Assembly (NCBI RefSeq): GCF_027922005.1
Contig: NZ_BSEV01000002.1
Coordinates: 372,001 to 436,000, forward strand
Reading direction: 5' to 3'
Source of the DNA: Streptosporangium carneum
GTDB lineage: Bacteria > Actinomycetota > Actinomycetes > Streptosporangiales > Streptosporangiaceae
Length of the DNA stretch: 64,000 nt
Numbering within the stretch: position 1 is the first letter of the stretch; each line of letters opens with the position of its first letter. A program made the translations under genes and the position numbers. The notes below the pieces were generated by a model. It was not told the DNA's origin, ran no database searches, and saw nothing but the letters and a program-made list of their open reading frames with translations. Shown here in pieces: positions 29,074 through 64,000 of the stretch.

Positions 29074-29082
29074 ACCGTCGGC

Positions 29083-29106
29083 GGGGCGCCGGGAGACCGG
29101 CGCCCC
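29083..29106 (+). terminator. Terminator after purC
   Basis: GGGGCGCCGG (29083-29092) pairs perfectly with CCGGCGCCCC (29097-29106) around a GAGA tetraloop. It lies between the converging purC and PP2C genes and can serve both. Confidence 0.8.
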
Positions 29107-29174
29107 GAACGGCCGCGGACGCGGCGCGGGCGGGCCGCCTCCGCGTCACCGCCGTCACCGTGCCCGGCGGCTCG

Positions 29175-29972: not shown

Positions 29973-30019
29973 GAAGGCAGTAAAGCATTGGTTGAAGCAC
30001 TTCACAAGCAAAGCTGTTG

Positions 30020-30048
30020 TAGACCGTTGCGGCACAGTCAACTACTCT
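30020..30048 (+). promoter_or_regulatory. Probable leaderless promoter of the methylase-kinase operon
   Basis: TAGACC (30020-30025), a 17-base spacer and TACTCT (30043-30048) end eight bases before ATG 30057. There is no Shine-Dalgarno, which fits transcription starting at or near the ATG. Confidence 0.5.
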
Positions 30049-30056
30049 GGCCCAGT

Positions 30057-46787: not shown

Positions 46788-47268
46788 CAGCACCTTTCCC
46801 ATATGTTTCCCGGCATTCTTGAAAGCGCTCTCCCACACCGCCCGTTCGACGTCTCCGGCGCCTTCCGGCCAATCAGACCGCTAAAGGCGAAACCATTTCA
46901 CGATCCATGCCGGCCGCATGTCCACGTCCGTCAAGATCCGAATCGCGCCCGCTCCCGGCGTGCCCTCCGCGACGCGAGGGCCTCTCGGCACGGGCGGAAC
47001 CTCCCACGTCCACCGTCCCGCCACGAGGCCCCGACCATGTCATTGAGCGTCCCCTCCGTGCCCGGAGCGCCGCACCGGCCTCCCGTCCCCGGGACGTCTC
47101 GCCTCTCGCGCGCTCCCGCTTGACGTTCACCGTCGATCTGGTTCAATCGGTCCAAAGTGGTGAGGCGGATAGTGCACGACAAAAGCTGTGCAGGATCACA
47201 AGGGAGTGATTCCTCCATCCCTCGGCGTACGCATACCGGCCGCGAACACAAAGGGAAAAGGAACTGCA
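46788..47268. other. Intergenic region before the radical SAM gene
   Basis: These 481 bases contain no gene I can support. A TTGACG near 47119 without a matching -10 is the only hint of a promoter. An in-frame GTG at 47188 would extend the radical SAM protein by 27 residues, but it has no ribosome site. Confidence 0.5.
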
Positions 47269-49251: not shown

Positions 49252-49258
49252 GCGCCCG

Positions 49259-50422
49259 ATGACTCTGGACGCCCTCGAACTGGCCGCACTCTCCCTGCGG
49301 GACGGGGAGAAGTGGGCCTCCGTCCCCGACGGCGTGCTGCCCGCGTGGGTCGCGGACATGGACTTCCCGATCTCCCCGGTCATCCGGCGGGCGCTGCTCC
49401 GCCGGATCGACACCGACCTCGGATATCCCGCGTGGTACGACGAGTCCCAAGGCGGGCCGCTGGGAGAGGCGTTCGCCGAGCGCATGCTGGGGCGCTTCGG
49501 CTTCGCCGCCGACCCCGCGCACGTCAGGCTGTTCACCGACGTCAACCAGGCCATGCAGGTCGTGCTGCACTTCGGCACCTCGCAGGGCGACCCGGTCGCG
49601 CTGCACACCCCGGCCTGCCCGCCGTTCGCGGAGACGCTGGTCAGGCTGGGCCGCCCGCCCAGGGCCGTGCCGATCCGCCGGCGGGACGACCGCTGGCAGC
49701 TCGACCTCGACCGGCTCGCCGACGAGATCCGTGGACGCTCCGGCCCCCCGTGCCGCGCGCTGTTCCTGGTCAACCCGCACAACCCGACGGGACGGGTCTT
49801 CCTGCGGGAGGAACTCGAGGAGCTGGCGAGGCTGGCGGTCGAGCACGACCTGCTGGTGATCTCCGACGAGGTGCACGCCGAGCTGACCTACGAGGGACAC
49901 CGGCACATCCCGTTCGCCTCGATCTCCGACGAGGCCGCCGCGCGCACGGTGACGATCACCTCGGGCAGCAAGGCGTTCAACCTGGCGGGGGCGCGCTGCG
50001 CCGTCGCGCACATCGGCGTCAGAGAGGTCCGTGAGGCCGTCGACGAGCACCGCGGCCTCCTGTTCGGCCAGGTGAGCGCCCTGGGAGTGGACGCGCTCAG
50101 GGCCGCGTGGACCGGCGGGGACCCCTGGCTGGACACCGTGAAAGCCCTGCTGGCCCGCAACCGGCTCCGGGTCGCCGAACGCCTGCCCGAGGGCGTCGGC
50201 CACCGCCTCCCCGACGCCACCTACCTCGCGTGGCTGGACTGCCGCTCCCTCGGCCTCGGCGACGACCCGTCCGCGTTCTTCCTGGAGAAGGCCAAGGTGA
50301 TGCTCTTCAGAGGCTCGGAGTTCGGCCCCGAGGGCAACGGCTTCGCCCGCCTGAACTTCGCCACCTCCCCCGCGGTCCTCGACGAACTGCTGAACCGAAT
50401 CCGCGCCGCCGTACCGGACTGA
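49259..50422 (+). CDS. MalY/PatB-type PLP-dependent aminotransferase or C-S lyase
   Basis: The 387-residue fold-type I PLP enzyme begins MTLDALELAALSLRDGEKW at ATG 49259, after AGGTGAG and seven bases beyond the radical SAM stop. Signatures are LPAWVADMDFPISPVI, FTDVNQAMQVVLHF, VNPHNPTGRVF, VISDEVHAELTYEGH and the Schiff-base Lys in TSGSKAFNLAGAR. This group includes cystathionine beta-lyases and aminotransferases of natural-product pathways. Working with the radical SAM enzyme is inferred from coupling. Confidence 0.88.
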   Translation: MTLDALELAALSLRDGEKWASVPDGVLPAWVADMDFPISPVIRRALLRRIDTDLGYPAWYDESQGGPLGEAFAERMLGRFGFAADPAHVRLFTDVNQAMQVVLHFGTSQGDPVALHTPACPPFAETLVRLGRPPRAVPIRRRDDRWQLDLDRLADEIRGRSGPPCRALFLVNPHNPTGRVFLREELEELARLAVEHDLLVISDEVHAELTYEGHRHIPFASISDEAAARTVTITSGSKAFNLAGARCAVAHIGVREVREAVDEHRGLLFGQVSALGVDALRAAWTGGDPWLDTVKALLARNRLRVAERLPEGVGHRLPDATYLAWLDCRSLGLGDDPSAFFLEKAKVMLFRGSEFGPEGNGFARLNFATSPAVLDELLNRIRAAVPD

Positions 50423-50553: not shown

Positions 50554-51447
50554 GTGGACTGGATCGAACGGGTCGCCGGAATCCGTCGCTGGAGCAAGGG
50601 CAGCGAGCGCGCACCGCACAAACCGCTTCTGCTCCTTTACGCCCTGGGGCGCTTCCAGCGGCACGGCAACAGGCCGATCCTGTTCAGCGCCGCCGAGGCG
50701 GAGCTGAAAAAGCTGCTCAGGGAGTACGGCCCGCCGCGCGAAACCAGCCCCGGCTACCCCTTCCACCACCTGACCAGTGACGGCCTGTGGCTGGTCGAAA
50801 CCGCCACCGGACCGGGTAGTCCGGGACCGGAGCTGGGCAGGCTGCGCGACAGTCAGGCCACCGGCCGCCTCCACCCCGACCTGGCCCGCGCTCTGTCCGA
50901 GGAGCCAACGCTGGTCGCCCGGATCGCCCGTTTTCTTCTCGACGCCAACTTCGCCCCCTCTCTGCATGCCGACCTCTGCCTGCTCGTCGGTCTCGATCTG
51001 GAAACCCTGGAGACCGCTGGGGAGACCATGGCAAACGGCGTCACCATACGCCGGGATCCCGCCTTTCGCGCGCAGGTGCTCATGGCGTACGAGTACACGT
51101 GCGCGTTCTGCGCCTACGACGGCTGGCTGGACGGCACGGCGGTCGGATTGGACGCCGCCCACGTACGCTGGCGAGCCTTCGACGGCCCTGACGAACTGGG
51201 CAACGGGTTGTGTCTGTGCGCGATCCACCACAAGCTGTTCGACAAGGGCGTCCTCGGGCTGAGCTCGGAGCGCACGGTGACCGTCTCGGCCAGGTTCGTC
51301 GGCCGTTCGGACTCGGCGCGGGAGATGGTGCTGGCCCTGGCCGGACGTTCTGTCCGCGCCCCACAGCCCGGCCTGGAGCCCGTCGAGGCGAACCACATCA
51401 CCTGGCACAGCCGCCAGATCTTCCGCACTCCGGCTCGCGCCTCCTGA
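50554..51447 (+). CDS. Phosphorothioated-DNA-binding SBD-HNH restriction endonuclease
   Basis: The protein starts MDWIERVAGIRRWSKGSERA and has PHKPLLLLYALGRFQRHG and SPGYPFHHLTSDGLWLVE, the sulfur-binding domain of the ScoMcrA/SprMcrA type. The C-terminal HNH domain (CAFCAYDGWLDGTAVGLDAA, HVRWRAFDGPDELGNGLCLC, AIHHKLFDKG; from about residue 184) keeps the metal Cys/His pairs. Known members cut phosphorothioated or methylated DNA, restricting Dnd-modified invaders. No dnd genes lie nearby, which fits a host that does not make that mark. The 297-residue length is normal. It opens the defence-type island. Confidence 0.9.
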   Translation: MDWIERVAGIRRWSKGSERAPHKPLLLLYALGRFQRHGNRPILFSAAEAELKKLLREYGPPRETSPGYPFHHLTSDGLWLVETATGPGSPGPELGRLRDSQATGRLHPDLARALSEEPTLVARIARFLLDANFAPSLHADLCLLVGLDLETLETAGETMANGVTIRRDPAFRAQVLMAYEYTCAFCAYDGWLDGTAVGLDAAHVRWRAFDGPDELGNGLCLCAIHHKLFDKGVLGLSSERTVTVSARFVGRSDSAREMVLALAGRSVRAPQPGLEPVEANHITWHSRQIFRTPARAS

Positions 51448-51506
51448 CCCGCTCCCATAGTGCTCCATCGACGGAGGGCTCCGCCGAATCGGCCCCGGCC
51501 CCGGAT

Positions 51507-53609
51507 CTACCACGTGTGGCGGGGCTGATCCATCGGCAGAAACGCGCTCGGCTGGCCGTGCCATGAGACGTAGAGCCGCTCACGGGCACGGGTGGAGGAG
51601 ACAAAGAGAACGCACCGTTCGCGCTGCAGGTCACGGACGTGGGCGTTCTCGTCTTCCGTCACAGGCGTGACGGCTCTTGCCGGTGGCACCTGGTTCTCGC
51701 CCACCCCGATCACAGCCACGCAGCGGAACTCAAGCCCTTTCATCCCGTGCATCGTCCCGATCCGCACCGCGTTGCCCTGTCCTGTCCGTGCGAGTGTGCC
51801 GACAGGGACCCCCTCCCGTTCCAGAAGCTCTCGGGCATCCCTGGTCAGAATGTCGGACCGGGCCGCGACACCGATCTCCCTCGGCTCCACTCCTGCCTCT
51901 ATCCACTCCCGGATCTGCGCGACGAGCGCTTCTCTCTCATCGAGCGGTGTGGGGAATCCTCGCTCAAGCGGTTTTTCCCCGTGGACATGCGAACGGCACC
52001 CTGCGATCTTCTCCAGGGCCTCGTTCATGTCGTCGATTCGAACATCGTGCAGCATGGACAGGCTCCAGGCCAGAATCTCGGCCGTGGTCCGATAGTTCAG
52101 GGTGAGCCGTACGGACCGTCCGCCGATGTCGATGCCCACTTCACGAAGCGACGGATGGTAGTGATAGATCCGTTGATGGGTGTCCCCCGCGACGAACAGG
52201 TCGTCGGTTCCCTCCGCGACAGCCTCCCTGATGAGGCGCCACTGCATCGGGCTGAAGTCCTGTGCCTCGTCGACGACGATGTGCCGGTACGGCTTCTCAG
52301 AAGTCTCAGCGAGGATCTTGCCGGCTTCGACGCAGACCGTTTCGTGAGTCCACCGATCGATGAGCCGCAGTTCCTGCTGAAAGTCCCAGACGATCTCCCA
52401 CACCTGCACGCGCTGCTGCGCACGAAGGCCGCGTCCTCTGCCGGAGCGCTTCGCCTGAAGGTAGGCGCCGGCGCTGGTGACCTGCTGGGCGAGCACGACC
52501 TGCCGCCACTCGTCGTACAGGAACTGCTCGCTGAGCGACGAGTTCCTCTTTATGGCGAGCCGCTTCCAGATTTCGAGCTCTTCGTCCTTGCGGAGGATCG
52601 TAGGTCGGCCGTGCCGCTCGGTGAAGACACGGTGCGCGACCTGGTCCACGTTGAGGACCGAAACTCGCTGAGCCTGCTCCGGCGTCTCAAGGAGGAGCGC
52701 CATGTCATGCCCCAACGAGGAGGCCAGCGCCGATGTGAACGTGGTGAGCAGAACGGGTCCCTCGTTCTGAACGGCGAGATGCTTTGCCCTGTGCAGGGCG
52801 GCCACCGTCTTACCCGTTCCCGGCCCTCCGGTGACCCGCGCAGGCCCGCGATAGGAAGCGTGCGCCACCTGATACTGGAGGGGGTGAAGGTAGACCCGCC
52901 AGAGCGCGAACGGCTCGCGGAAGATCTTCATCAAATCGGCGGGACCGTCCACGAGGAGAACCCGGTCCGAGGTCCGCATCACGGCCGAGGAGAGGTCCTC
53001 GGGGTCGAACGGCTCGGGTTCCGCCCTGCATCCGAGGTCTGACCAGACCTCTTCCGGGGTCATTCCGGCTGCGAGCCCGAAAAGCACGTCCCACTGCGTG
53101 GCGGACAGGAATGCTTTGGCGGTTTCCAGCTGCTCCACGCGGGTGAGCTCGCGCGCGAACGCCAGGGTCTCCTTCGTGATGCCGAGCCGTACGAGATCTG
53201 AGTCGCTGACGTGATCGAACAGATGCCTCACGGTCTCCCGCGCCTCGTCCTCGATCTCACCGAGCGCGTCATGGAGTGCGGCGGGGTCCCAGATGTCTAT
53301 GCAGCCGTTCGCCGCGTTCACTTCCACCTTGTGGCGCTCGGCCCATCTGTAGGCGTCGTCGTGCGGAAGCACTTTGAGCAGTGTGTAGTTGTCGCCTCCC
53401 TTCGGGGCCAGGACGACACCCCGCCAGAAAATGTCCACCCTGACCGTGCGCAGCCGGTCATCTCGAGCGTTGTTGACCTTCTCCAGATGCAGGCTGGCGT
53501 ACGTGGCCTGCTCGAACTTGCCGAACACCTCACCGATCCGCATCCGGATGGGAGCGTCCATCCGGAAGACTTCCTTGAGACATTCGATGTGGATGCCGAG
53601 CCGGGCCAC
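51507..53609 (-). CDS. SF1 (UvrD/Rep-type) helicase with RelE-like N-terminal domain
   Basis: The 700 residues carry all SF1A motifs: VTGGPGTGKTVAALHRA (near 265), LLTTFTSALASSL, IVVDEAQDFSPMQW, FVAGDTHQRIYHY, LTLNYRTTAEIL, IGTMHGMKGLEFRCVAVIG and LFVSSTRARERLYVSWHG. The first ~100 residues (ASLHLEKVNNARDDRLRTVR, DNYTLLKVLPHDDAYRWA) look like a RelE/ParE toxin fold, which is known at the N-terminus of some UvrD-like helicases. GTG 53609 abuts the kinase TGA (TGAGTG) with AAGGAG upstream, so it is coupled to the kinase gene. It probably acts on DNA in the same pathway as the methylase. Confidence 0.9.
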   Translation of the reverse strand: MARLGIHIECLKEVFRMDAPIRMRIGEVFGKFEQATYASLHLEKVNNARDDRLRTVRVDIFWRGVVLAPKGGDNYTLLKVLPHDDAYRWAERHKVEVNAANGCIDIWDPAALHDALGEIEDEARETVRHLFDHVSDSDLVRLGITKETLAFARELTRVEQLETAKAFLSATQWDVLFGLAAGMTPEEVWSDLGCRAEPEPFDPEDLSSAVMRTSDRVLLVDGPADLMKIFREPFALWRVYLHPLQYQVAHASYRGPARVTGGPGTGKTVAALHRAKHLAVQNEGPVLLTTFTSALASSLGHDMALLLETPEQAQRVSVLNVDQVAHRVFTERHGRPTILRKDEELEIWKRLAIKRNSSLSEQFLYDEWRQVVLAQQVTSAGAYLQAKRSGRGRGLRAQQRVQVWEIVWDFQQELRLIDRWTHETVCVEAGKILAETSEKPYRHIVVDEAQDFSPMQWRLIREAVAEGTDDLFVAGDTHQRIYHYHPSLREVGIDIGGRSVRLTLNYRTTAEILAWSLSMLHDVRIDDMNEALEKIAGCRSHVHGEKPLERGFPTPLDEREALVAQIREWIEAGVEPREIGVAARSDILTRDARELLEREGVPVGTLARTGQGNAVRIGTMHGMKGLEFRCVAVIGVGENQVPPARAVTPVTEDENAHVRDLQRERCVLFVSSTRARERLYVSWHGQPSAFLPMDQPRHTW

Positions 53610-55160
53610 TCACGACTCCTTATGGTCGATTTCGTCGATGAGGCGGCCGATTTCGGCCACCTGTGGGTGGTCGAAGCCGCGAAGCATGGCGATGTCGCCA
53701 CGCAGTGCGACAAGGGTTCGCTCGGCCTCGTGGACGTCTCCGGCCCCCAGCTGAAGGACGGCGATCTGCTTGCGCAGCTCGAGAGGCCGGGAGTCGGCGT
53801 CGCCGTACAGGGCCCGCTGGTCCTGGAGAAGCGAGGTCAGCTGCCGGAGCGCGAGCCTGATGTCCCCGCCCATGGCACGGCAGCTCGCCTCTCTGAGCCT
53901 GCAGTGGAAGGCCAGCTCGGCTCCGTCCTCTCCGCGCTGGCCATAGAGGTCTGCGAGGTCTCGATAGTGGGACGCGGCGAGACGGTAGTCACCGCCCTCG
54001 AACAGGACGTCGGCCAGTTCCAGTCGCAGGCTCAGCATCTCGCCGTTCTCCGGTACGAGGAGCCGTCCCGCCGGGCCTGCCACCTCGGTGAGGATCTCGA
54101 CCGCCTGGGTGTAGCGAGACTCTCTGACCAGCTCCGTGACCTGGGCCCGGATCGCCGACAGATCGGCGGCGTGGGTCAGGCGGGGCTCGTCGGCGAGAAC
54201 CGGTTGCCGCGTCTGGTCGATCATCTCCGGCCGGTCATCGCTCACCAGCGCGGCGAGGGCTCGCGCGTACATCCGAACGGGCGACTCGGTCGATGCCGGG
54301 TGGACGAAGTCAGGAAGACGCACTGTCCCCGAGGTCAGTGCCGACAGCGAGGCGAAGACCGCGCAAGCGTCTCGCGGACGGTCCTCGGGTCGCTTCTCCA
54401 GCAGGCCGAGGACGAGTTCGTCGAGCTCGTGGGGAATCTCACCGCGAATCCGGCTGGCCGCCCGCGGAGCATCGCTGACCTGCTGGTGGAGCGTCTCGTA
54501 CTCGGAGGGACCGGGGAACACGTGCTTGCCGGTGAGCATCTCGTACATCACGCAGCCGAGAGCGTAGAGATCACTCCCTGGACCAAGCGGCTGGGCGCGC
54601 ACCTGCTCCGGCGACATGTAGTGCGCGGTCCCCATCACCTGACCGCTCCGGGTATATCGCGAGAAGCGCGGGTCGGTGAGAATCGCCAGGCCGAAGTCGA
54701 GCACCTTGACACTGCCGTCCGGACAGATCATGAGGTTGGACGGCTTGAGGTCCCGATGCAGAATCGACAGTTCGTGGGCGGCTCCCAGGACAGCGCAGAC
54801 CTGTGCGGCGATACCCGCCACCCAGCCGATCGGGAGCGGTCCAAGCTCGGCGAGCAGATCAGCGATGGTGCTGCCCTTGACGAACTGCATCACCTCGAAA
54901 AGGCGTCGTTCACCGGTCTGCGGATCGTCGTAGCTGCCGGCGTCATAAACGGTCGGCGCTCCGGGGTGGTCGAGACGCGCCATGATCCGAGCCTCGCGCA
55001 GGAAGCGCCGCTCCAGTTCGTCCGGCGGAAGGTTGCCGACGAAACGAATAAATTTAATCGCTACTTTTCGGTCAAGCTGGCGGTCGTGCCCCGAATAGAC
55101 CTCACCCATGCCACCTTTACCGATGGGACGGCCTACCTCGTAACGATCAACGATGACCAT
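53610..55160 (-). CDS. Soluble Ser/Thr protein kinase with C-terminal TPR-like region (copy B)
   Basis: The 516 residues have a complete kinase domain: IGKGGMGEVYSGHDRQLDRK, VAIKFI, ILHRDLKPSNLM, VLDFGLAILTD, GTAHYMSPEQVRAQ and SDLYALGCVMYEMLTGKH. After SPVRMYARALAALVS (near 310) a helical region follows with TPR-like pairs (TQAVEILTEVAG, LRLELADVLFEGGDYRLAAS, ADLYGQRGEDGAELAFHC, KQIAVLQLGAGDVHEAERTL). There is no TM helix. It is paralogous to 31980-32873, which ends at the RMYAR motif. ATG 55160 follows GGGG. It lies 45 bases after the methylase gene and is directly joined to the helicase gene. Confidence 0.93.
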   Translation of the reverse strand: MVIVDRYEVGRPIGKGGMGEVYSGHDRQLDRKVAIKFIRFVGNLPPDELERRFLREARIMARLDHPGAPTVYDAGSYDDPQTGERRLFEVMQFVKGSTIADLLAELGPLPIGWVAGIAAQVCAVLGAAHELSILHRDLKPSNLMICPDGSVKVLDFGLAILTDPRFSRYTRSGQVMGTAHYMSPEQVRAQPLGPGSDLYALGCVMYEMLTGKHVFPGPSEYETLHQQVSDAPRAASRIRGEIPHELDELVLGLLEKRPEDRPRDACAVFASLSALTSGTVRLPDFVHPASTESPVRMYARALAALVSDDRPEMIDQTRQPVLADEPRLTHAADLSAIRAQVTELVRESRYTQAVEILTEVAGPAGRLLVPENGEMLSLRLELADVLFEGGDYRLAASHYRDLADLYGQRGEDGAELAFHCRLREASCRAMGGDIRLALRQLTSLLQDQRALYGDADSRPLELRKQIAVLQLGAGDVHEAERTLVALRGDIAMLRGFDHPQVAEIGRLIDEIDHKES

Positions 55161-55205
55161 CCGCCCCCCACAACATGTAGCTACAGTGGGAGAAGTTACA
55201 CCGAT

Positions 55206-57137
55206 CTATGCATGTGGATCGAGAGTACCGTCGACAAGGCCCTCGAATCCGGCCCGAACCAGTGCGGCGCTCAGCTCCGTGATCTCTCTGGCGGTGTTCT
55301 CGAAGGCCATCAGACGCCGAAACACCTCTCCGTATCTCTTCTGTTCAGCGAGCGGGAGCCGTGGAATGGGGGCTCGTCGAGCATCGATCCTGCTTGACAC
55401 GGAAGACGCCCGAGCGGCTCTGGCCCCTCCCGCCATCCGGAGAAATCCGGCCAGGAAATAAGGGTCAATTCTGTCTGGATCAGCTCGGAAGAGATAGAGC
55501 TGCGGCCCTAGAACCTGTCCTTCCTCGTCGACCACCATGGACGTCGACTCTCGGGCCAGGATGGGTGCGATCACGTCACCGGCCTGGCAGAACACCGCGC
55601 CCGCGTCGCGGCTGGTGCGCCCGGACGGTCTGCCGCCCCGAGTGACATCTCCTGAGGTGATGACCGGGAGGTCACCCTCACCCAGGGTCATCTTCAGTGG
55701 GGCCTGGTAGATCTCCACCAGCCCTGCCCGCGCCAGCTCCCCCGCCGTGGTCATCGACAGATCACGGGGGGTACGTGCTGCTCGCAGTTCGGGGAGCTCC
55801 CCGGGAAACAACTGGCGCAGCCGCTCGCGTGCTCGCTCGAAGGTTTCCCCCACGACGACCGTCGTGGGGGTCACGTACCGCCCCGGGCTTACGTTCACCT
55901 CTTCGTCAAGCAGGTCGATGAGTCGGACCGTCCGGCAGTTCGGCTCGGCCATCTCGGTTTCAGGGTTCTGTCGGAATCTTCCCCAGGCCCGCCGTACAAG
56001 GGAAAGGTCCTCGGCCGCCTCGACCATGAGGACGTGGATGGGGGTGGGGTCGTCGGGTGCCGGTTTTCGGAGAAGCCAGAGATCGGGCGCCATGCTCGTG
56101 CCTGGTGCGGCCCCTACCGGCAGTGACACCACTGCTCTGAGCGCACCAGAGCGGAGCAGGTTGCCGCGGATTCTCCGGCCACTGCGGCGATCGGCCGCGA
56201 CGGAGGGCATCATGATCGCGACGACGCCGCCCGGTCTGACGTGTGCCAGGCAGTGCTGCGCCCAGGCCAGCTCCGGCTCGCCTCGAGGCGGCAGACCGTA
56301 CTCCCATCGCGGGTCGCCGGCCAGTTCTTCATAGCCCCAGGTCCGTTCCCCGAAGGGGGGGTTGCAGATGACGGCATCAGCCTGATCGGCTGCGAATCCG
56401 TCATGCCTGAGGGAGTCGGCGGCCACGACGCGCGCGTGCCGATCGTGGAGAAGGAGCCTGACCGCGGTGAGTTTCGCCGCCGCCTCATCGACGTCCTGGC
56501 CGAGCAGAACCTCCGCTCGGGCCGCGACGAGAAGGGTACCGATTCCGCAGGCGGGATCGAAGACCACCCGCCCCTCGACCAGGTCTGCGACGAGGCGGGC
56601 GATCTCCGCAGGTGTGGCGAGCAGGCGACGAGAGTGCGTCTCCGCATATCGCTCGAAGAGGAAGTCGAAGACTTCGACCGGTCCCACTTGTTCCGCGAAG
56701 TCCGCCAGGCCGCGGACGAGTTCGACGTCGTCGAGCATCTCCAGTCCCCCTGGCGCATCCGGTACGGCGCGCGTCAGGGCTTCCTGAAGGAGATGGAGCA
56801 GATTTTCCCGCTCAGCGAGTTTTCGCCACTCCGCGGGATAGCCCTTGATGAACAGAAGCAGGGCTCCCACCGAGCCGACCGCATCTCCCAGGCGCAGGTC
56901 GTCAACAGTACTGCGCAGGCGCTGCCACACCCTGTCTCCTGGAGAGACCGTGAACTTCTTGCCCTGCTTGCGCAGCCAGTCCTCGATCTCGGACAGGGAG
57001 AAGGCAGGACTCGTCGCCGTCCCGCCGACGGGTTGAGGGAAGTCCTCGTAACGCTTGCGCCAGTTGCTCACTGCCGCACGGCCCACATCAGCAAGCCGGG
57101 CGATGTCCGCAGCGTTCACCGTCGCGTCGTTCGGCAT
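55206..57137 (-). CDS. HTH/N6-adenine methylase-like protein with HsdS-like C-terminus (copy B)
   Basis: The 643 residues begin MPNDATVNAADIARLADVGR at ATG 57137 (AGAGGT six bases upstream). A DNA-binding region reaches KQGKKF (near 60); the methyltransferase has motif I FDPACGIGTLLVAA (near 187) and motif IV CNPPFGERTWGYEELAG (near 255), then RPGGVVAIMMPSVAADRRSG. The C-terminal third (LARAGLVEIYQAPLKMTLGE to IPRLPLAEQKRYGEVFRRL) resembles an HsdS recognition half. The catalytic NPPF is canonical. It is the first gene of a minus-strand operon with kinase and helicase, and paralogous to 30057-31955. A kinase-controlled modification enzyme is the natural reading. Confidence 0.88.
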   Translation of the reverse strand: MPNDATVNAADIARLADVGRAAVSNWRKRYEDFPQPVGGTATSPAFSLSEIEDWLRKQGKKFTVSPGDRVWQRLRSTVDDLRLGDAVGSVGALLLFIKGYPAEWRKLAERENLLHLLQEALTRAVPDAPGGLEMLDDVELVRGLADFAEQVGPVEVFDFLFERYAETHSRRLLATPAEIARLVADLVEGRVVFDPACGIGTLLVAARAEVLLGQDVDEAAAKLTAVRLLLHDRHARVVAADSLRHDGFAADQADAVICNPPFGERTWGYEELAGDPRWEYGLPPRGEPELAWAQHCLAHVRPGGVVAIMMPSVAADRRSGRRIRGNLLRSGALRAVVSLPVGAAPGTSMAPDLWLLRKPAPDDPTPIHVLMVEAAEDLSLVRRAWGRFRQNPETEMAEPNCRTVRLIDLLDEEVNVSPGRYVTPTTVVVGETFERARERLRQLFPGELPELRAARTPRDLSMTTAGELARAGLVEIYQAPLKMTLGEGDLPVITSGDVTRGGRPSGRTSRDAGAVFCQAGDVIAPILARESTSMVVDEEGQVLGPQLYLFRADPDRIDPYFLAGFLRMAGGARAARASSVSSRIDARRAPIPRLPLAEQKRYGEVFRRLMAFENTAREITELSAALVRAGFEGLVDGTLDPHA

Positions 57138-57367
57138 GCCCAACCTCTCTCGTTTTGGCCTGCCCGGTCCAGCCACACGCTATCTCACGATGCCGCGACT
57201 CCATCAAGTGGGTTGTGAATAGGAGACACGAGTGCTTTACTCGCACAGGTTGCCCCTTCGGAGTGCTTCTCCGCCGAAGCAATGCGCTTCGCCAGGTTTA
57301 CCTCCTCAGCTCGTGAACCCCCGCATCTCAACCGCCTTCCCAGGACTTCGGACGACACGGTGTGCCC
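57138..57367. promoter_or_regulatory. Bidirectional promoter region of the two divergent operons
   Basis: For the minus strand, TTGATG (complement of 57202-57207) and GATAGC (complement of 57179-57184) with a 17-base spacer make a likely promoter about 35 bases from the methylase start. For the plus strand no consensus box is convincing. A shared control point would let methylase-kinase-helicase and chaperone genes respond together. Confidence 0.5.
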
Positions 57368-60300
57368 ATGAGTTTTCACCTCGACGCCGACCCCGCACAG
57401 TCATCGGCGCTGCTCGACCAGCTCGAATCCGGCTGGAATCCGCAACTCCCCGGCATCTCGCTGCTGACGGAGCTTGAGGTCGACCGAAAAGTCCTTATAG
57501 AGGCCTCTCACGCCCTTGGGCACCTCTACCGGCTCAAGGTCACCAGAGGCCGGTATCAATCTCTCTTCACCCGGTGGCCCGCCTGTGTGGCGGTGACGAT
57601 GAGCGGAACGGCGGCCAACGACTACCGGGAGGGGACCTTCTGGCCCTACTGGTGGGACGCGATCGGCTATGAGTTCGCTGCCCAGTCCGACGCGAAGGCA
57701 TGGGGACAAGCTTTTCTCGACGCTCTGCGCATTTTCCACCTGCCGCGCTTCACGGAACGTTCCATGAAGTACGTCGGGCCGATCCTCATGCACGCCGGAA
57801 TCCCCACGTTCTGCCTGGGGAACTTCTTCAGGCTCCTTCTCCAGCGACGTGCCCAGGACCCTCACCTGGACGCGGACGCCCTGCTCGCCTGGGCCACCGG
57901 ACGGGAGAACCGGCTCCGCGGTCTGCATGAGCCCGCCCAGTGGTTCATCAGGTACGGCACAGACCACGCCGTCGACGTCATCGACCGCTGCCTCGACCTC
58001 CTCGACCGGCTGTGCGCGGGCGACCACGATCTCGACGGACTCGGCCTCCCCGTTCGCTACTTCGAGCAGGCCCAGCTCCTGGTCGCCGACCGCGGTCTCG
58101 ACCTCACGCTCCCCGCCGGGTCGGGCGGGCGCTCCCGCCGGGCGGAACGGCCCCGACTCGCCGTCGACCCCTTCGGGCAGGGTGTTCAGATCATCTTGCC
58201 GCCGGTGGGCGATGCTCCGGACGGAACCGCACGCTGGTGTGTCACCGTGGACGGTGTCCAGAACATCGTGAAGAGCCGATCCATGTGGCTGGGAGCGACC
58301 GAAGCCGCCCCCAGCACCTCCTTCCCGATCGCCAGACCCGCGAGAGTCGCGCAGATCTCCCTGTACGGCACGGCGCACGAGTCCCAGATCGACGTCGTCG
58401 ACGCGGAAGACCCCCTGCTGATCTTCACGGAGAACGGCGACCGACTCGCCGACCATCTCGGAGTGCCTCCAGACTCGGTGTGGCTGCTGTATCCCGGCGA
58501 TCGCGAGCTGGTGTCGGACATTTCGCTGCGAACTGTCGCTCAAGGCGCCCTTCCCATCGGTTGGGATGGCTGGCGACTCGTGCAGGTGGCCCTGGAGGGA
58601 GCGACCTGGATCGGGCTGTCCGATGAGAAGGCCAGGCGCCGGCCGGTACGCGGACACAGCAAACCCCGGGTGGTCACCGGCGAGCCGTTGACCGGTGTCT
58701 CCACCCCTTACGGCTCGCCGGTCTTTCCCTCGCTGCCCGCTGTCTGGCTTCCCGCCGAGACGACGACCACCTGGCTGGTCGACATCCGTCCGGGCTCAGG
58801 GGACGGCAGTGTCTACAACGGTTCGTTCACGGTCAGCGAGCCCACCAAGCTCTCGGAGGAGCTGTGGGCGGACGTGCCCAGACCCATCCTGGGGGCCTTC
58901 GAGATCACCGTTCGCGGACCGATCGGCCGGAGCACCCGCAGGACGGTCTTCGTCGCCGAAGGGCTGAGCGCGCGGTTCACGCCTCAAGTGCGACTCCTGG
59001 CGCACAGCGGCCTGACGCCGGGAGAGTCAACGGTCTCAACGGCACCCGGGATGACGGCCGAGCCCACGAGAGCGATCTACTCCCCGGCCGAGCGGGAGCA
59101 CGTCATCACCTGCGGCACAGGCCGTGAGAGCGAGCCCCTGATCGTCACCCCGCCATCCATGAGGGTCATGGTGGAGGAGTCGGATCAGAGCCCCTACTGG
59201 ACTTACGGACCGGTGCGACTGGTGACCGAGCTCTTCGAAGACGTCGAGTCGCTCCAGGTCGAGGTTCCCGGTGTCAGCACGCCACCTTCGTTGGAGGTGC
59301 TCGTCGGCGGCAAACTCGTCCAGCGTCTCACCCCATCCGGCCGTGGCCGCTACAGCCTGAAGCGGGCTCAGGACACCATCGCCCAGCACCGGAGCGCGGA
59401 ACTCGTCTTACCGCTCGCGGGGCTCGTGCTTCCTGTCGGCAGTGTCCGCCCCAGCCGGTTGGCCACGGGTGTCTCTCACCAGGGTGACCATCTGAGTCTT
59501 GAGAACTGTGCCTGGGTCGAGGGCCTGACCGCGGGGATCTACCTGTGTACCGCCCCCTGGCGCGCCCCAGAGATCATCCCGATCAAGGAGGACGGTTCGA
59601 TTCCCCTCCCCACCGAAGTGAGCGGCGCAGGCTCGCTGCACATCCGCCTCGTGGTTGAGGATCCCTGGGTTCCCTCGGAATGGCCGCGATGGCCGCATCC
59701 CAGCGAGATGCTCAAGTGCGAGATCCCCGGCCAGTACGGCGGAGCAGACGACGAGGAGCGGCTGCTCTCGGGTTACCTGGCCGGGGCCAACGGGCTCCCA
59801 GAGCGGGTTTCCCGTCTGGACCGGCTTTGGACGGTCATCGATCTGGCCAACCGAATCGACTACCCGTCGGCGGCTCGGCGGATCAACGACTGCGCGTCGC
59901 TGCTCCGCACGCACCCAGAGGCGATCCGCTCACTGCCCGACGCCGCCCTCCCTCCGGACCGCACGGTCGTCGCGCTGGTGACGACCGGCCTCGCCGCCAC
60001 CCTTGTCAGCGACTATCGGGAGTCCGACGACCGCCTCTGGCGCAAATCACCCGCGGTCGCCGCGCTGCTGACCTGTTCGGCGCTCGCAGATCTCACCGAG
60101 GACTCGGATCTGCTCGCCGAGATCAGGGCCGAATGCGGCGAGTCAGCGACGGCCATCCTGGGCGGAGAGGACGATCCCCACGCCGGGGCCGGACGGTTCG
60201 ATCAGTTCGCCGAGTTGATGGACCGCAAGAGCCCCGCGGAGATCGAGCAGATGTGGACCGCCGTTCAAGTCGTCCCCGCCGGGCTGCTCGCCGGAGACAC

Positions 60301-60679
60301 CCGTGTCATCGCCGCACGTCGTCTCTTCGACGAACGGCACCGCCGCGACGGACGGGGGCTCTCCGCCCAGGCGGCCAGAGTGCTTCGGGAGGCGATGGCC
60401 ATCCGAATCACCGAGTATCGCGGCCTGGAGAAGTACATCGAGGCCCGCTGCCATCCGCAGCGACGCGACGGCTGGGTGTCGCTGCCCGCCCTGTCCATCG
60501 CGTGTGCCCTGATCGCCCGGATAGCGGCGCGCGGACATGAGGGCTGCCAGTACCTCGAACGTGAGTTCCGCCCGCTGTGGCGAGCATTGTCCAAGATCGC
60601 CCCCGATCTGACGGCTCTCGACCTCGTCCGGGCGGAGCTTCTCGTCGCGCTCAAGGCGACGGAAGCCGGTTCCGCATAA
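57368..60679 (+). CDS. Large unknown protein heading the Hsp70 operon
   Basis: I do not recognise the family. The start is ATG 57368 (MSFHLDADPAQSSALLDQLE) or GTG 57362. The 1103 residues are soluble. About 1-240 is helical with many aromatics (GTFWPYWWDAIGYEFA, LRIFHLPRFTERSMKYVGPI); 270-770 is beta-rich (GDAPDGTARWCVTVDGVQNI, VFPSLPAVWLPAETTTTWLV, LGAFEITVRGPIGRSTRRTV); 800-1103 is helical (ERVSRLDRLWTVIDLANRID, LDLVRAELLVALKATE). No P-loop, zinc finger or nuclease motif is visible. Codon use and GC resemble neighbours. It lies directly upstream of the J-like, GrpE-like and Hsp70 genes, so it may be the client, sensor or effector of that chaperone system. Confidence 0.8.
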   Translation: MSFHLDADPAQSSALLDQLESGWNPQLPGISLLTELEVDRKVLIEASHALGHLYRLKVTRGRYQSLFTRWPACVAVTMSGTAANDYREGTFWPYWWDAIGYEFAAQSDAKAWGQAFLDALRIFHLPRFTERSMKYVGPILMHAGIPTFCLGNFFRLLLQRRAQDPHLDADALLAWATGRENRLRGLHEPAQWFIRYGTDHAVDVIDRCLDLLDRLCAGDHDLDGLGLPVRYFEQAQLLVADRGLDLTLPAGSGGRSRRAERPRLAVDPFGQGVQIILPPVGDAPDGTARWCVTVDGVQNIVKSRSMWLGATEAAPSTSFPIARPARVAQISLYGTAHESQIDVVDAEDPLLIFTENGDRLADHLGVPPDSVWLLYPGDRELVSDISLRTVAQGALPIGWDGWRLVQVALEGATWIGLSDEKARRRPVRGHSKPRVVTGEPLTGVSTPYGSPVFPSLPAVWLPAETTTTWLVDIRPGSGDGSVYNGSFTVSEPTKLSEELWADVPRPILGAFEITVRGPIGRSTRRTVFVAEGLSARFTPQVRLLAHSGLTPGESTVSTAPGMTAEPTRAIYSPAEREHVITCGTGRESEPLIVTPPSMRVMVEESDQSPYWTYGPVRLVTELFEDVESLQVEVPGVSTPPSLEVLVGGKLVQRLTPSGRGRYSLKRAQDTIAQHRSAELVLPLAGLVLPVGSVRPSRLATGVSHQGDHLSLENCAWVEGLTAGIYLCTAPWRAPEIIPIKEDGSIPLPTEVSGAGSLHIRLVVEDPWVPSEWPRWPHPSEMLKCEIPGQYGGADDEERLLSGYLAGANGLPERVSRLDRLWTVIDLANRIDYPSAARRINDCASLLRTHPEAIRSLPDAALPPDRTVVALVTTGLAATLVSDYRESDDRLWRKSPAVAALLTCSALADLTEDSDLLAEIRAECGESATAILGGEDDPHAGAGRFDQFAELMDRKSPAEIEQMWTAVQVVPAGLLAGDTRVIAARRLFDERHRRDGRGLSAQAARVLREAMAIRITEYRGLEKYIEARCHPQRRDGWVSLPALSIACALIARIAARGHEGCQYLEREFRPLWRALSKIAPDLTALDLVRAELLVALKATEAGSA

Positions 60680-60800
60680 GGCCCGGGTAATTCCGAAAAA
60701 GCAACTATAAAGCGCACGTTGATCGCTACCCTTTAGCGTGATGGGCGCACACCGAGAGTGAGAGATTGCCCTGAACGCACCTAATTCCCACGCCGAACTG
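60680..60800 (+). other. Gap before the J-like gene, with possible internal hairpin
   Basis: CGCTA (60724-60728) and TAGCG (60734-60738) form a small hairpin, and TATAAA occurs near 60708, so a weak internal promoter is possible. In-frame ATT and CTG codons at about 60765 and 60771 could start the J-like protein earlier than the GTG at 60801. Confidence 0.35.
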
Positions 60801-62411
60801 GTGGCGGCCTGGCGCATCAAGCGAAATGCCAGACAGGCAGCGATCAGATCCGGCGGCGCCGGCGCGGATCCTGTAGCAGAAGGCTGGGCCGCCCTTGGTG
60901 TTCACGGTGGCGACACCATCGGCGAGCTTCACAGAGCGATCTCGGCATTGCTCGACGATAGCGCCCCGCCGGCTGAGGATCTGGAAACAATCAGAGGGTC
61001 CCTTGAAGGCGCGCCCGACCCGTCGCTTCCCACAGCCGTCAGATCCGCGCTCGTGACCGTCCCTCCTCGGCTCCTCATCAAGAATCTCGGCGAGCTGCTC
61101 CAGGCCGGCATGCCGTGGATCACCGACGTGGGACGCCGCAAAGTACAGTTGCTCTCCTTCGATCACCCCCTCGCCGGGGTCGTCCGGCTACCCGGAGACG
61201 ACGTGCTCGAAGGTGGCGCCAAGTGGCGTCTCTATCTGGCGGCCCTGGGGCACCCTGCCCGCGTGACCACAGCGGAGGTCACGCGGATCATTCCAGATCT
61301 GCCCCTAACCGTGGTCGACGACTTCATCGACCTCGGTCTGCTCGGCGAGCGCGAGCAGCCGTGGCGGCTGCGCCCCGACCCTGACGAGAGCCTGTATCTC
61401 CGCGCCCGTCTCACGCCGGACTCGATCGAACGGCAAGACGCGACGACTCTCGGGTGGGCCGAGATAGAGCGTCGTCATGCCTTCTTGGAGGGCGACGAGC
61501 TCCTCGACGGTGCCGATCTCTTCTCCCTCCTCGCGGCGTTCTGGCGAGGCGAGACGGATATCACCCTGCGGACGCGCCTGTCTTCCGGTGGCCGCGCACT
61601 GTATGACGAGATAACCGTCGGCGCCCAGACCGGTCGATGGCCCCAGCGCATCGTCACTGACAGGGGCCTCTGGCCGCTCCTGACCGCGCACTGGACGCCG
61701 AGCGAGTCCGTCAACCCCAAATTGAGTGAGTTTCACGCCTGGCGGGCGCTGTACAACTGCTACCGATGGATCCTCATGGGCTGGTTCGACAGAGCAAAAC
61801 CTCAGGTCGAAGGCCTCCTGGAAGCGTCGAACGAGACGGACGGGAAACGGGAACGGTTGCTTCCCGACGCGATGCGCGCGGAGATCCACACGATGGCCGC
61901 CTACCTCGCGCAGGAGAACAACGAGCTGGAGTTCGCGATCAAACTTCTGGAAATGGCCCAGGACACGCACCCGGAGGTCCGGGAGAACCTGCGTCGCCTG
62001 CGAGAGCGCCGTGCGCTGACCATGAACAACCGTGATCACTGGGAGAACCCCTACCTCATGTTGGGCGTCCCGCACGGCGATCCCGGCTGGGAGGATCAGT
62101 GGCGCGACCTCCGCAAGGAGCTTAATCACGACGTCGATCGGTTGACGCACATCAATGCCGCGAAAAGGCGGCTCATGCATGCCGAAAGACATGGCGCCGA
62201 CTTCTACGTCCTGCCACTCGAAGAAAGCTCGTTGCACCTCTCCAGGGAACGCTCCGCAGCACTGCTCCCACCTGTGGAGCCACTGCACCGCCGGACTTCG
62301 CAGAGCAAGCCTGAGGACTTCGACCCACTGCGGGTGAACGCGACACGATCATTGCTGGACGACTTCGAATTCAGCATGCCGAAAAACACGGAACCGAGCG
62401 ATGAAGCCTGA
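60801..62411 (+). CDS. TPR/J-domain-like protein lacking HPD
   Basis: Starting at GTG 60801 there are 536 residues; no ribosome site precedes this codon, and a rare CTG or ATT start up to 12 codons earlier is possible. A middle region (about 100-260) is helical with winged-helix character (LPLTVVDDFIDLGLLGEREQ); 320-405 is TPR-like (AWRALYNCYRWILMGWFDRA, ELEFAIKLLEMAQDTHPEV). Near 416, NPYLMLGVPHGDP and LRKELNHDVDRLTHINAAKR make a J-domain-like segment (YxxLGV...INAAKRRL), but the HPD loop is replaced by NHD. It may bind the neighbouring Hsp70 in a non-standard way or recruit clients. Its stop overlaps the GrpE-like start by 11 bases. Confidence 0.72.
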   Translation: MAAWRIKRNARQAAIRSGGAGADPVAEGWAALGVHGGDTIGELHRAISALLDDSAPPAEDLETIRGSLEGAPDPSLPTAVRSALVTVPPRLLIKNLGELLQAGMPWITDVGRRKVQLLSFDHPLAGVVRLPGDDVLEGGAKWRLYLAALGHPARVTTAEVTRIIPDLPLTVVDDFIDLGLLGEREQPWRLRPDPDESLYLRARLTPDSIERQDATTLGWAEIERRHAFLEGDELLDGADLFSLLAAFWRGETDITLRTRLSSGGRALYDEITVGAQTGRWPQRIVTDRGLWPLLTAHWTPSESVNPKLSEFHAWRALYNCYRWILMGWFDRAKPQVEGLLEASNETDGKRERLLPDAMRAEIHTMAAYLAQENNELEFAIKLLEMAQDTHPEVRENLRRLRERRALTMNNRDHWENPYLMLGVPHGDPGWEDQWRDLRKELNHDVDRLTHINAAKRRLMHAERHGADFYVLPLEESSLHLSRERSAALLPPVEPLHRRTSQSKPEDFDPLRVNATRSLLDDFEFSMPKNTEPSDEA

Positions 62412-63294
62412 GAACATGTCGACCAATCAGCCTCCCGGAAACCAGGGCAGGAAACCACGAAGGTCAGCGGCGAGTCCGCGACCGAGATCGGAGCCGCGCA
62501 ACAGGAACGACCTCCATAATGTCGTCGACAACCTAACCCAGCGCCTCGAGCGAGAAGTGGAACGACGCCTCCTCGATGTCAGCAGCGAGCTGAGAGGGCT
62601 CCTCCGGAGCGAGATACGGATGCACGCCGCGCGGTTGGCCCGAGAGAGCGAGGAGAAGGCCTCATCGGCAGCACGCGCGAGCCAGGAAAAAGCGAGACCG
62701 CGTCGTGAGACGGAGACCCCGTCCGAGGAGAAGGCCTCACCGGCAGAACCTTCGAGCCGGGAAAGAGCGGACTTGGAGACGAGGCTGCGTCGCGAGATGG
62801 AGGACCGGCTGGCGACAATCGCCAAAGAAAGGGCGCACCTCGATCCGAACCTCGTGCTGAAGAGATTCACCGAGCACACCAGCGCGCTTCTAAACAAAAT
62901 CGACGGTTCAGACTCGGGCACGTTGCGCGAACAATTGAACAGCGGTCTGCGTCAAGCCGTTCTGGACGCACTGCGCGGCCGGAAACAGCACCTCTCCCAT
63001 CTGACGAAAATCGAACGGGTGGTGCGGGAGGGATCCATGGACCAGATCCCACAACTGCTGGACGAGTTCTTCGTCGAAGCCGGAGTTCGGAGGATCTCGG
63101 ACCCCTCGGAGGGCCCGGAGTTCTTCAAGGCCATCAACGACTCGGTCGGCAAACCGTATCTCCAAGTGGTGGAACCCGCTTACGTGGACGAGGCAACCGG
63201 CCGGATTCTGCGTGCTGGCCATCTGAGGCATGTCGCGGAACCGCAGCTCGACGAGACCACTGCGGCACGTGACGTTTCGGAGAGGAAACCGTGA
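62401..63294 (+). CDS. GrpE-like nucleotide-exchange factor with long charged N-terminus
   Basis: ATG 62401 (MKPENMSTNQPPGNQGRKPR) overlaps the preceding gene; ATG 62416 is an alternative. Residues 30-150 are a highly charged, partly coiled-coil segment (NLTQRLEREVERRLLDVSSE, LETRLRREMEDRLATIAKER). The C-terminal part ends YLQVVEPAYVDEATGRILRA then GHLRHVAE, which resembles the GrpE beta domain (VxxVLxPGYxxxGRVLRPAxVxVA). GrpE resets Hsp70 by releasing ADP. The 297 residues exceed normal GrpE because of the N-terminal extension. The stop overlaps the Hsp70 start (GTGA). Identification rests on the C-terminus and context. Confidence 0.68.
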   Translation: MKPENMSTNQPPGNQGRKPRRSAASPRPRSEPRNRNDLHNVVDNLTQRLEREVERRLLDVSSELRGLLRSEIRMHAARLARESEEKASSAARASQEKARPRRETETPSEEKASPAEPSSRERADLETRLRREMEDRLATIAKERAHLDPNLVLKRFTEHTSALLNKIDGSDSGTLREQLNSGLRQAVLDALRGRKQHLSHLTKIERVVREGSMDQIPQLLDEFFVEAGVRRISDPSEGPEFFKAINDSVGKPYLQVVEPAYVDEATGRILRAGHLRHVAEPQLDETTAARDVSERKP

Positions 63295-64000
63295 CAACCG
63301 GAATCGACTTCGGCACGACCAATTCCGTTGTCGCGCAGTGGAACGGTGAAGACGTCGAGGTGCTCTCGCTGGACAGCGAGCACCTCGAAGACGAATGGTT
63401 CTATCCTTCCTTCGAGCATCTCTTCCCCACCATCGTGGGAGAGAGCTCGCTTCGCCTTGGCACACTGTTCGGCTGGGAGGCCAAGCTCCGGTCGAACCGG
63501 GTGATCGAGGCCTGCAAGCGCATGCTGCGCAACGACGGGGGTATCCAGCTCCGGGATCGTCGCATCTCCGCGACCGCCGTCGCCGCCGGTGTCTTCCAGG
63601 CCATGCGCGACCGGGCGGAGACGAACCTCACCACGATCGACAGCGCGGTCATCACCGTTCCGGCCAACGCGAAAGGCGGTGCCCGCTACCGCACACGGGC
63701 CGCGGCCCGAGCCGCGGGAATCCAGGTCAAGGCCCTGCTGAACGAACCGACCGCGGCCGCGCTCTCCTACATGCACGACATCCAGGAGGAGGGCACCATC
63801 ATGGTCTTCGACTGGGGCGGCGGGACCATCGACGTCACCGTCCTGGAGCACAGGGACGGGCTGTTCGAGGAGCGCGCGTCGCGCGGCGTCACCCAGCTCG
63901 GCGGCCTTGAGGTCGACAAAAGACTCCGCGCCCTCATCATCAGAAGGATCGGATACGAGCCCGACCTCTCACCGGAGGAGGAGAGGCAGTTCGCGCTGGC
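63291..64000 (+). CDS. Hsp70/DnaK-family chaperone, 3' end beyond the window
   Basis: GTG 63291, after AGAGGAAACC, begins MTTGIDFGTTNSVVAQWNGE. The ATPase domain shows phosphate-1 GIDFGTTNSVVA, the connect region LLNEPTAAALSYMHD and phosphate-2 VFDWGGGTIDVTVLE, where DWGGGT replaces the usual DLGGGT. About 236 residues are visible. This is a specialised Hsp70 rather than housekeeping DnaK: its partners are a J-like protein and a GrpE-like protein in one operon, with an unknown 1103-residue protein first. The substrate-binding domain, if present, is outside the window. Confidence 0.9.
   Translation, partial: MTTGIDFGTTNSVVAQWNGEDVEVLSLDSEHLEDEWFYPSFEHLFPTIVGESSLRLGTLFGWEAKLRSNRVIEACKRMLRNDGGIQLRDRRISATAVAAGVFQAMRDRAETNLTTIDSAVITVPANAKGGARYRTRAAARAAGIQVKALLNEPTAAALSYMHDIQEEGTIMVFDWGGGTIDVTVLEHRDGLFEERASRGVTQLGGLEVDKRLRALIIRRIGYEPDLSPEEERQFAL

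Follow-up and report, generated by a model that had tools for sequence, protein, structure and literature searches.

We analysed a 64,000-nucleotide stretch of Streptosporangium carneum DNA (the window; positions 372001-436000 of contig NZ_BSEV01000002.1, in the 9.84-Mb genome of a soil actinobacterium), where three genes for a J-like protein, a GrpE-like protein and an Hsp70 with an NYN-type RNase domain (together, the cassette) stand between the two genes of a Druantia III-like pair, druH and druE. Positions are window coordinates, continued past 64000, where the window end cuts the Hsp70 gene and the locus extends beyond it; genes were called with a codon-usage caller, by which some genes were missed or shortened. 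On the plus strand, the DruH-like gene starts at 57368 or 57362 (1103 or 1105 residues) and runs to 60679. It is followed by the genes of the J-like protein (60801-62411, 536 residues), the GrpE-like protein (62401-63294, 297 residues) and the Hsp70-NYN protein (63291-65336 in continued coordinates, 681 residues), and then, past base 64000, by a DruE-like helicase gene (1536 residues) and pglW, pglX, pglY and pglZ in the same direction. The J-like and GrpE-like genes overlap by 11 bases and the GrpE-like and Hsp70 genes by 4 bases. The gap between the Hsp70 and helicase genes is 31 bases and that from the helicase gene to pglW about 110, with 4-base overlaps at both pglW/pglX and pglX/pglY. 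The G+C content is 63-68% across 52-66 kb against 65-75% elsewhere in the window.

The DruH-like protein had no match in the Pfam, NCBIfam or PADLOC models, and a PADLOC scan of 19 DruH-like proteins returned none up to E 10. We compared a profile of 19 relatives, by hhalign, with eight proteobacterial DruH proteins of the family named STY4851/ECs_5259 by NCBI (8 of 9 plasmid records retrieved), all eight of which have a DEAD/DEAH helicase gene immediately after them. Full-length plasmid-borne genes were taken as reference because K-12 yjiT and the H18 gene are short forms, and the short form L204 was excluded from the alignment. The two profiles aligned with a probability of 71.8% (E 3.5e-5; 70.8% for the realigned pair) and, at a relaxed setting, collinearly from 35-1116 to 22-1104, compared with 0.1-0.2% for four unrelated control pairings. 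The AlphaFold2 model (predicted local distance difference test, pLDDT, 83.8; predicted template modelling score 0.60) consists of a helical part (residues 9-240), a beta part (263-785) and a second helical part (795-1103), which agrees with the published description of DruH as having immunoglobulin (Ig)-like domains at 257-748 and helical regions at both ends (PMC13192584, in excerpt). Foldseek searches with this model returned general Ig-rich proteins with low TM-scores, and no entry among the 50 matches listed per search bore the name baseplate J; the published likeness of DruH to baseplate proteins was thus not reproduced, which counts against the DruH identity.

Relatives of the DruH-like protein occur in 41 of 297 genomes of its family and in 3 of 296 in a phylum-wide sample (our own, one strong and one weak match), with no match in plasmids. 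From the 40 other family genomes, 24 loci, mostly the best-matching, were retrieved. A DruE-like gene is co-located in 24 of the resulting 25 DruH-like loci (our own, L033-L052 and L112-L115), and the exception, L113, carries a partial DruE-like gene; L213, from another family, also pairs a DruH-like with a DruE-like gene. Judged by profile alignment and predicted model, the 1103-residue protein is a distant DruH, and DruH is thereby extended to a branch invisible to the PADLOC and NCBIfam models searched.

The helicase encoded downstream of the cassette matched the PADLOC models DruE3 (590 bits) and DruE1 (570 bits) and contains the Pfam domains DEAD, Helicase_C and MZB, in keeping with the YprA-family helicase with DUF1998/MZB expected of a Druantia III DruE. 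Its MZB domain lies at residues 1442-1519 of the 1553 scanned, the protein ends soon after, and there was no nuclease match on it, such as to the PLD-like C-terminal nuclease of type III-A DruE. The same holds for most members of the second Druantia type III branch (PMC12458937, in excerpt). The four genes that follow scored 694 bits for PglW (646 residues scored), 1624 for PglX, 1415 for BrxC-PglY and 840 for PglZ in PADLOC, and their joint presence defines a BREX type 2 core. Genes of the pgl type stand near the DruH-like gene in four of the 25 loci (our own, L034, L035 and L036), and the three cassette genes separate druH from druE in our own locus and in L033, L035 and L036. Past pglZ, PADLOC matched PprPDDEXK at 85181-86947 (280 bits) and PprDinG at 88072-91266 (387 bits).

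A first-pass annotation of this DNA had named seven genes here, three on the minus strand (methylase, kinase and helicase) and four on the plus strand, and ORF (open reading frame) and Pfam checks located all seven where it had put them. It had taken them for one new system and had set BREX/Pgl aside. We rejected the seven-gene system: the plus-strand genes continue into druE and, past the window end, into pglW-X-Y-Z, and the methylase family is very common. Because the 1103-residue protein is DruH-like, and 24 of 25 loci with such a gene also hold a DruE-like gene, we identify this locus as a Druantia III-like operon (druH-druE) with an inserted cassette, followed by a BREX type 2 core. The suspicion of a defence locus is thus borne out, although not in the form proposed: the Druantia III-like and BREX parts are of known kinds, and what is new is the three-gene cassette that separates druH from druE.

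The GrpE-like protein had no Pfam match but aligned with GrpE at a probability of 83.8% (hhalign, E 7.9e-6; 1.7% in the swapped control), as the first-pass annotation had suggested. The assignment of the 536-residue protein as J-like is supported more weakly, at 55.8% against DnaJ J-domains (E 1.1e-4; swapped control 1.07%). The AlphaFold2 model of the J-like protein (pLDDT 92.8) is all-helical, with the J-like part at the C-terminus (approximately residues 415-466) and hairpin helices at 430-440 and 445-464. The His-Pro-Asp (HPD) motif, already noted as missing, occurs nowhere in 87 of 88 J-like sequences, and in the sole exception, L137, it lies outside the J loop; these proteins therefore do not have a canonical J-domain, which is defined by HPD in the loop. 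Foldseek found no match to the model at E<=0.001, and the top non-significant rows were TPR proteins and P58(IPK), which is a co-chaperone.

The Hsp70 has nucleotide-binding and beta substrate-binding parts, and its Pfam HSP70 match (221 bits) reaches profile position 510 of 599. The C-terminus matches RNase_Zc3h12a above the gathering threshold of 23 bits (29.9 bits with the whole protein, 34.2 with the C-terminus alone); a predicted Zc3h12a-type NYN RNase domain thus stands where the Hsp70 lid would be expected. In the 91 Hsp70 sequences compared, some of them shared between sets and so counted twice, K76, E152, D174, T179 and D181 are invariant (91/91). The NYN domain is present in 74 (also in the L051 Hsp70, at 30.2 bits), with D538 conserved in 74/74 and N541, D617 and D635 in 67/74 each. 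By analogy with DnaK and Regnase-1, these Hsp70 and NYN residues are putative catalytic positions. A housekeeping dnaK operon was considered and rejected, as the protein scores 216 bits against a DnaK equivalog cut-off of 822.55 and its neighbours are defence genes. PADLOC (version 2.0.0) gave no match for our J-like or GrpE-like protein, only a weak one for the Hsp70 (PDC-M61B, 14.9 bits), and a single weak unrelated match among the cassette relatives (11.2 bits); the cassette is a component without a convincing PADLOC 2.0.0 model. A literature search covering open papers without their supplements yielded, among the matches listed, no paper that we recognised as describing it. We therefore regard the cassette provisionally as unreported, and the first-pass annotation was right to find a private chaperone set unusual.

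The J-like profile matched 17 of 297 family genomes, 14 of them strongly (the three weak matches, G053, G075 and G177 with E 9e-6 to 7e-5, were left out), and 3 of 396 in the phylum sample (our own, one strong and one weak), with no match in viral contigs, plasmids or phages. The gene order J-like, GrpE-like, Hsp70 is the same in 14/14 strong genomes. Seven of these 14 also hold a DruH-like gene, where about two would be expected (p 0.001; 0.004 without our own genome), and in five of the seven both lie in one locus. A scan of a one-genome-per-species collection with 14 Hsp70s gave 253 loci, of which the best 80 were kept; by their record titles all 80 are actinobacterial, and eight (L117-L120, L122, L160, L163 and L165) are loci of family genomes already counted, so that the two sets overlap. 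The J-like gene is contiguous with the Hsp70 gene in 75/80, and all three cassette genes were called in 65/80; an ORF search recovered the J-like gene in 77, the GrpE-like gene in 79 and the Hsp70 gene in 80 of the 80. Joint dereplication of both sets, with Hsp70s at 90% identity, left 33 non-redundant loci among the 80.

The first-pass annotation had reasoned that its proposal would fail if the Hsp70 set always lay beside housekeeping genes. This is not the case, since the cassette recurs in defence operons and adjoins five kinds of helicase-based defence genes. Best PADLOC names were established in L196, L125, L134 and L157, and the other loci were classed by cluster models built from the same loci; the scripted class ARMADA was overridden for L190 (Druantia IV) and L118 (DISARM). 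In 15 of 80 loci the cassette follows Druantia IV-type genes, directly after DruE, with druE and the J-like gene overlapping by 1 or 4 bases in 14 of the 15. L196 was named by PADLOC (DruF4 153, DruL4 315 and DruE4 2173 bits) and the other 14 by cluster models; the NYN domain is absent from all 15 cassettes. L190 combines Druantia IV-type genes and an NYN-free cassette with a methylase, a kinase, an SNF2-type helicase and a DrmMI-like methylase, all in one direction.

Ten loci have an ARMADA-like context, a name given here by gene order, the published order of ARMADA I being a YprA end, an SNF2-type helicase and a PglX/DrmMI-like methylase (PMC12458937, in excerpt). In L125, the SNF2-type helicase was named DpdE by PADLOC (1831 bits; DrmD 282) and the methylase DrmMI (225 bits), and for the YprA end the matches to MZB and DUF559 stay below cut-off. 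In five of the ten there is a 4-base overlap between the cassette and the methylase gene, with LeoBC/LeoA-like genes following the cassette, in three it lies immediately upstream of the gene for a YprA helicase of ~2100 residues, and in the other two that helicase gene is divergent. The LeoBC/LeoA-like genes of L125 (12088-16792; 123 and 158 bits) stand right after the cassette, and cluster models for them match 8/80 loci. The 2112-residue YprA-family helicase encoded just after the cassette in L157 (12182-18520) has an N-terminal Ser/Thr kinase domain at about residues 6-300.

A superfamily 1 (SF1) helicase of ~1200-1350 residues is encoded just upstream of the cassette in 11/80 loci, some of which also have a divergent methylase gene and a DndB-like gene, the latter scoring 30.8 bits in L134 (cut-off 29.1). 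Positions 1-12040 of L134 form an unnamed cluster of a methylase gene, a divergent DndB-like gene, a small gene (c9), the gene of a 1242-residue SF1 helicase and the cassette. A Druantia III-like context was found in 3/80. In L118, the DISARM locus, the cassette is flanked on one side by the gene of a DrmMI-like methylase and on the other by that of DrmA, which scores 1421 bits against a cut-off of 950. L137 and L147 have a gene of the DrmA cluster on the opposite strand, and DrmA was found in both genomes. The remaining loci have other partners or none recognised. Among the 33 non-redundant loci, the contexts are none (12), SF1 (5), ARMADA (4), methylase-HsdM (4), dynamin-type (2), methylase (2), Druantia IV (2), Druantia III (1) and other YprA (1). 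Two further kinds of neighbours were seen. L175 (2520-7193) encodes a 1557-residue protein upstream of the cassette, as does L174, with weak matches to Sacsin and to NO VEIN C-terminal, both below cut-off. L104 (2076-4019, the same as L120; 145 bits) and L188 (20290-22004; 84 bits) contain genes similar to K-12 McrB, which makes a link to type IV restriction possible.

A defence helicase of at least 100 bits was found near the cassette in 13 of the 33 non-redundant loci and in none of 40 control 20-kb regions (p 7e-6), a count that favours the cassette loci because the SF1 and SNF2/RapA models were built from them. The DruE model, which was not built from cassette loci, gave 7/33 against 0/40 (p 0.003). 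The control regions were hand-chosen, non-random positions across eight genomes, and since defence genes tend to lie together, such a control is lenient. A stronger argument than this comparison comes from the fixed positions of the cassette and from the 19/80 loci in which it overlaps a helicase or methylase gene by 1 or 4 bases. In a tree of 46 Hsp70s, with several long branches and unsure deep joins, our protein pairs, at a support of 95/95, with that of L036, another Druantia III-like locus. Druantia III contexts require five changes on the tree and ARMADA contexts four, and partners therefore seem to have been exchanged. Over all context labels, 19 changes were counted against a mean of 26.5 in shuffled labels, with none of 200 shuffles as low; the context therefore appears to be partly inherited, although near relatives alone could cause such clustering.

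The locus shares several features with known systems. Like Druantia type III, it has a YprA-family DruE and, encoded before it, a DruH-like partner of ~1100 residues with a helical/beta/helical layout, but it differs in the three chaperone genes between druH and druE and in a DruH missed by PADLOC and NCBIfam. An actinobacterial DruH (1132 residues) with its DruE (1667 residues) protects M. smegmatis (PMC13316683, in excerpt); our locus is likened to it, and to type III-B (PMC12458937, in excerpt), by description. BREX type 2/Pgl shares pglW-X-Y-Z, whereas DruH-DruE and the cassette are no part of BREX. DISARM and ARMADA operons have the cassette inside or beside them elsewhere (L118; L125 and others), but were not seen in our own locus. 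CoCoNuT systems, in the parts of PMC11090510 consulted, also combine an Hsp70-type ATPase (the CnuD Hsp70 homologues) with RNases in loci with Druantia III or BREX. Their authors propose a DNA-first, RNA-later order of defence for such loci and regard these Hsp70 homologues as poor ATPases. In contrast to the degenerate CnuD, our Hsp70 has its ATPase-type residues intact, the RNase is NYN here and HEPN there, and our cassette adds J-like and GrpE-like partners; the main text of PMC11090510 never mentions GrpE, DnaJ or NYN. CoCoNuT was rejected as an identity for the locus, since no match to K-12 McrB or McrC was found in our 92 kb at E<=0.001, a search that a divergent CnuB could escape (the McrB-like genes lie in L104 and L188). 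In conflict loci of actinobacteria, the GAP1-N2 GTPase systems likewise include HSP70, GrpE and DnaJ or TPR components (PMC7159879, in excerpt). They are centred on GTPases and FNIII proteins, while our locus is a helicase-based DNA defence, a comparison made by description. The main text of PMC12458937 contains none of the terms Hsp70, DnaK, GrpE, DnaJ and chaperone, PMC13192584 mentions neither Hsp70 nor chaperone, and PMC8195603, in the part consulted, mentions Hsp70 and NYN only apart.

The observed gene content, homology, conserved ATPase- and RNase-type residues and recurrence beside defence genes are compatible with a Druantia III-like operon into which a defence-dedicated Hsp70 machine has been inserted, one that would assemble or gate the defence complexes and be able to fire an RNase. 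We favour this reading tentatively and give it somewhat less than an even chance. We infer the following scheme for the client, for gating of the RNase and for its RNA target. The J-like protein would act as a helical adaptor bringing clients, drawn either from the DruH/DruE complex or from phage proteins bound by the sensor; the Hsp70 would bind and remodel them using ATP, and the GrpE-like protein would reset it. Client capture or the ATP state might expose the RNase domain at the lid position, and RNA cutting would form a second, abortive line when DNA-directed defence fails. In published work, DruH is the likely sensor and the DruE helicase the effector of a late-acting defence (PMC13192584, in excerpt), and abortive infection is reported in M. 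smegmatis (PMC13316683, in excerpt). The absence of NYN from the Druantia IV-type cassettes points to the chaperone cycle as the constant element and to the RNase as an arm that some cassettes lack.

Several observations weigh against this reading of an inserted, RNase-firing Hsp70 machine. As HPD is absent, the J-like protein may not stimulate ATP hydrolysis by the Hsp70 in the usual way, and its J-like assignment itself is the weaker of the two alignments. Seventeen of the 91 Hsp70s, including all 15 of Druantia IV type, are without the RNase domain, so RNA cutting cannot be the sole role, and in seven of the 74 NYN domains, three catalytic-type positions are changed or poorly aligned. There is no cassette in the retrieved stretch of 20 of the 25 DruH-like loci, and in G184 and G244 the DruH-like gene and the cassette are 18 and 28 kb apart. 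No recognised system accompanies the cassette in 20/80 loci (12/33 non-redundant), L137 and L147 among them, and the 13/33 helicase count carries the bias described above. We hold with more reserve the broader proposal that the cassette serves actinobacterial immunity as a general plug-in. On this proposal, a chaperone-gated RNase would dock on unrelated helicase-based complexes (Druantia III/IV, DISARM, ARMADA and SF1-helicase operons), use the Hsp70 cycle to read their state or the phage proteins they have captured, and convert DNA-targeting defence to RNA cleavage.

Alternatively, the cassette may be a chaperone that only assembles and stabilises very large, multidomain defence proteins, with the NYN domain as a minor or regulatory add-on. 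Many of its neighbours are indeed giants (DruH-like 1105, DruE-like 1536-1840, YprA ~2100 and DrmMI-like ~1350 residues), the ATPase-type residues are intact and the Druantia IV-type cassettes keep their genes without NYN, but retention of the NYN residues in most sequences is unexpected for a bystander, and the many DruH-like loci showing no cassette also speak against it; we consider this rather unlikely. If the cassette were instead a free-standing module of abortive or toxin type that settles in defence islands, its fusion to operons being incidental, this would account for the loci with no recognised system and for the apparent swapping of partners on the tree. Such a reading fits poorly with the fixed position and short gene overlaps and, if near relatives are not the sole cause, with the clustering of contexts, and appears improbable to us.

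The genes divergent from druH were also linked to the system in the first-pass annotation. They encode, on the minus strand, an SF1 (UvrD/GajB-like) helicase (51507-53609; Pfam UvrD-helicase 72 bits, PADLOC GajB 103 bits), a Ser/Thr kinase (53610-55160; Pfam Pkinase 157 bits, PADLOC PD-T4-6 298 bits, weak C-terminal TPR matches) and an N6-adenine methylase with an HTH (helix-turn-helix)-like N-terminal part (55206-57137 or -57176; Pfam N6_Mtase 116 bits), in which the HTH matches are below cut-off. The intergenic region between the methylase and DruH-like genes, 57138-57367, has the 230 bases reported earlier with starts 57137/57368, and 185 bases with starts 57176/57362. The kinase stands as annotated and is likely soluble, as proposed, its most hydrophobic 19 residues (hydropathy 1.76, from residue 109) falling within the kinase fold. 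A second methylase-kinase pair, from the same two families, lies on the plus strand of the window (28968-31955 and 31980-32873), its kinase 55% identical to that at 53610-55160. The N-terminal 240 residues of the SF1 helicase had no match over cut-off. The RelE/ParE-like N-terminus reported on the ARMADA II SF1 helicase was represented only by a ParE_like match in L033 (12 bits, E 0.22), with none in ours, and MADS was rejected on MAD6 (127 bits, NCBIfam cut-off 460) and MAD2 (26 bits, cut-off 720).

At E<=0.001, 245 of the 297 family genomes contain a match to the methylase, its own genome contains four, and a related kinase occurs in the 1.5-kb flanks of 21 of the 30 best-matching methylase loci; the methylase and kinase are therefore a separate, common module. 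Such a methylase gene over 200 bits is found in 8 of 25 DruH-like loci (7/24 without our own; a partial methylase in L050 was left out) against 0/40 controls (p 2e-4 and 6e-4). In our own locus and in L033, L035 and L049, a divergent methylase gene adjoins the DruH-like gene, and in L115 a single small ORF separates the two; genes placed in this way could share a regulatory region. The first suggestion, a single switch in which phosphorylation controls modification and to which methylase, kinase, helicase and chaperones all belong, would suit this divergent placement and enrichment, but we consider it very improbable given the ubiquity of the methylase and its absence over 200 bits from the retrieved stretch of 17/25 DruH-like loci. 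At the far side of the helicase gene, the island is bordered by a gene for an HNH restriction nuclease of phosphorothioated DNA (50554-51447; NCBIfam NF045808, 337 bits, cut-off 180), matching the SBD-HNH nuclease named in the first-pass annotation. Further out, 47188-50422 encodes a radical SAM protein with a B12-binding-like part beside a relative of PatB-type aminotransferases/C-S lyases (301 bits, cut-off 340).

The cassette may thus be an unrecognised plug-in of bacterial immunity. If the proposed mechanism is correct, an Hsp70 whose lid is replaced by an RNase would link protein-quality control to abortive defence and would offer a testable handle on the control of DruH, DrmA and ARMADA complexes. 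The Hsp70 cycle would then be a switch in antiphage immunity, common to systems that are now treated separately.

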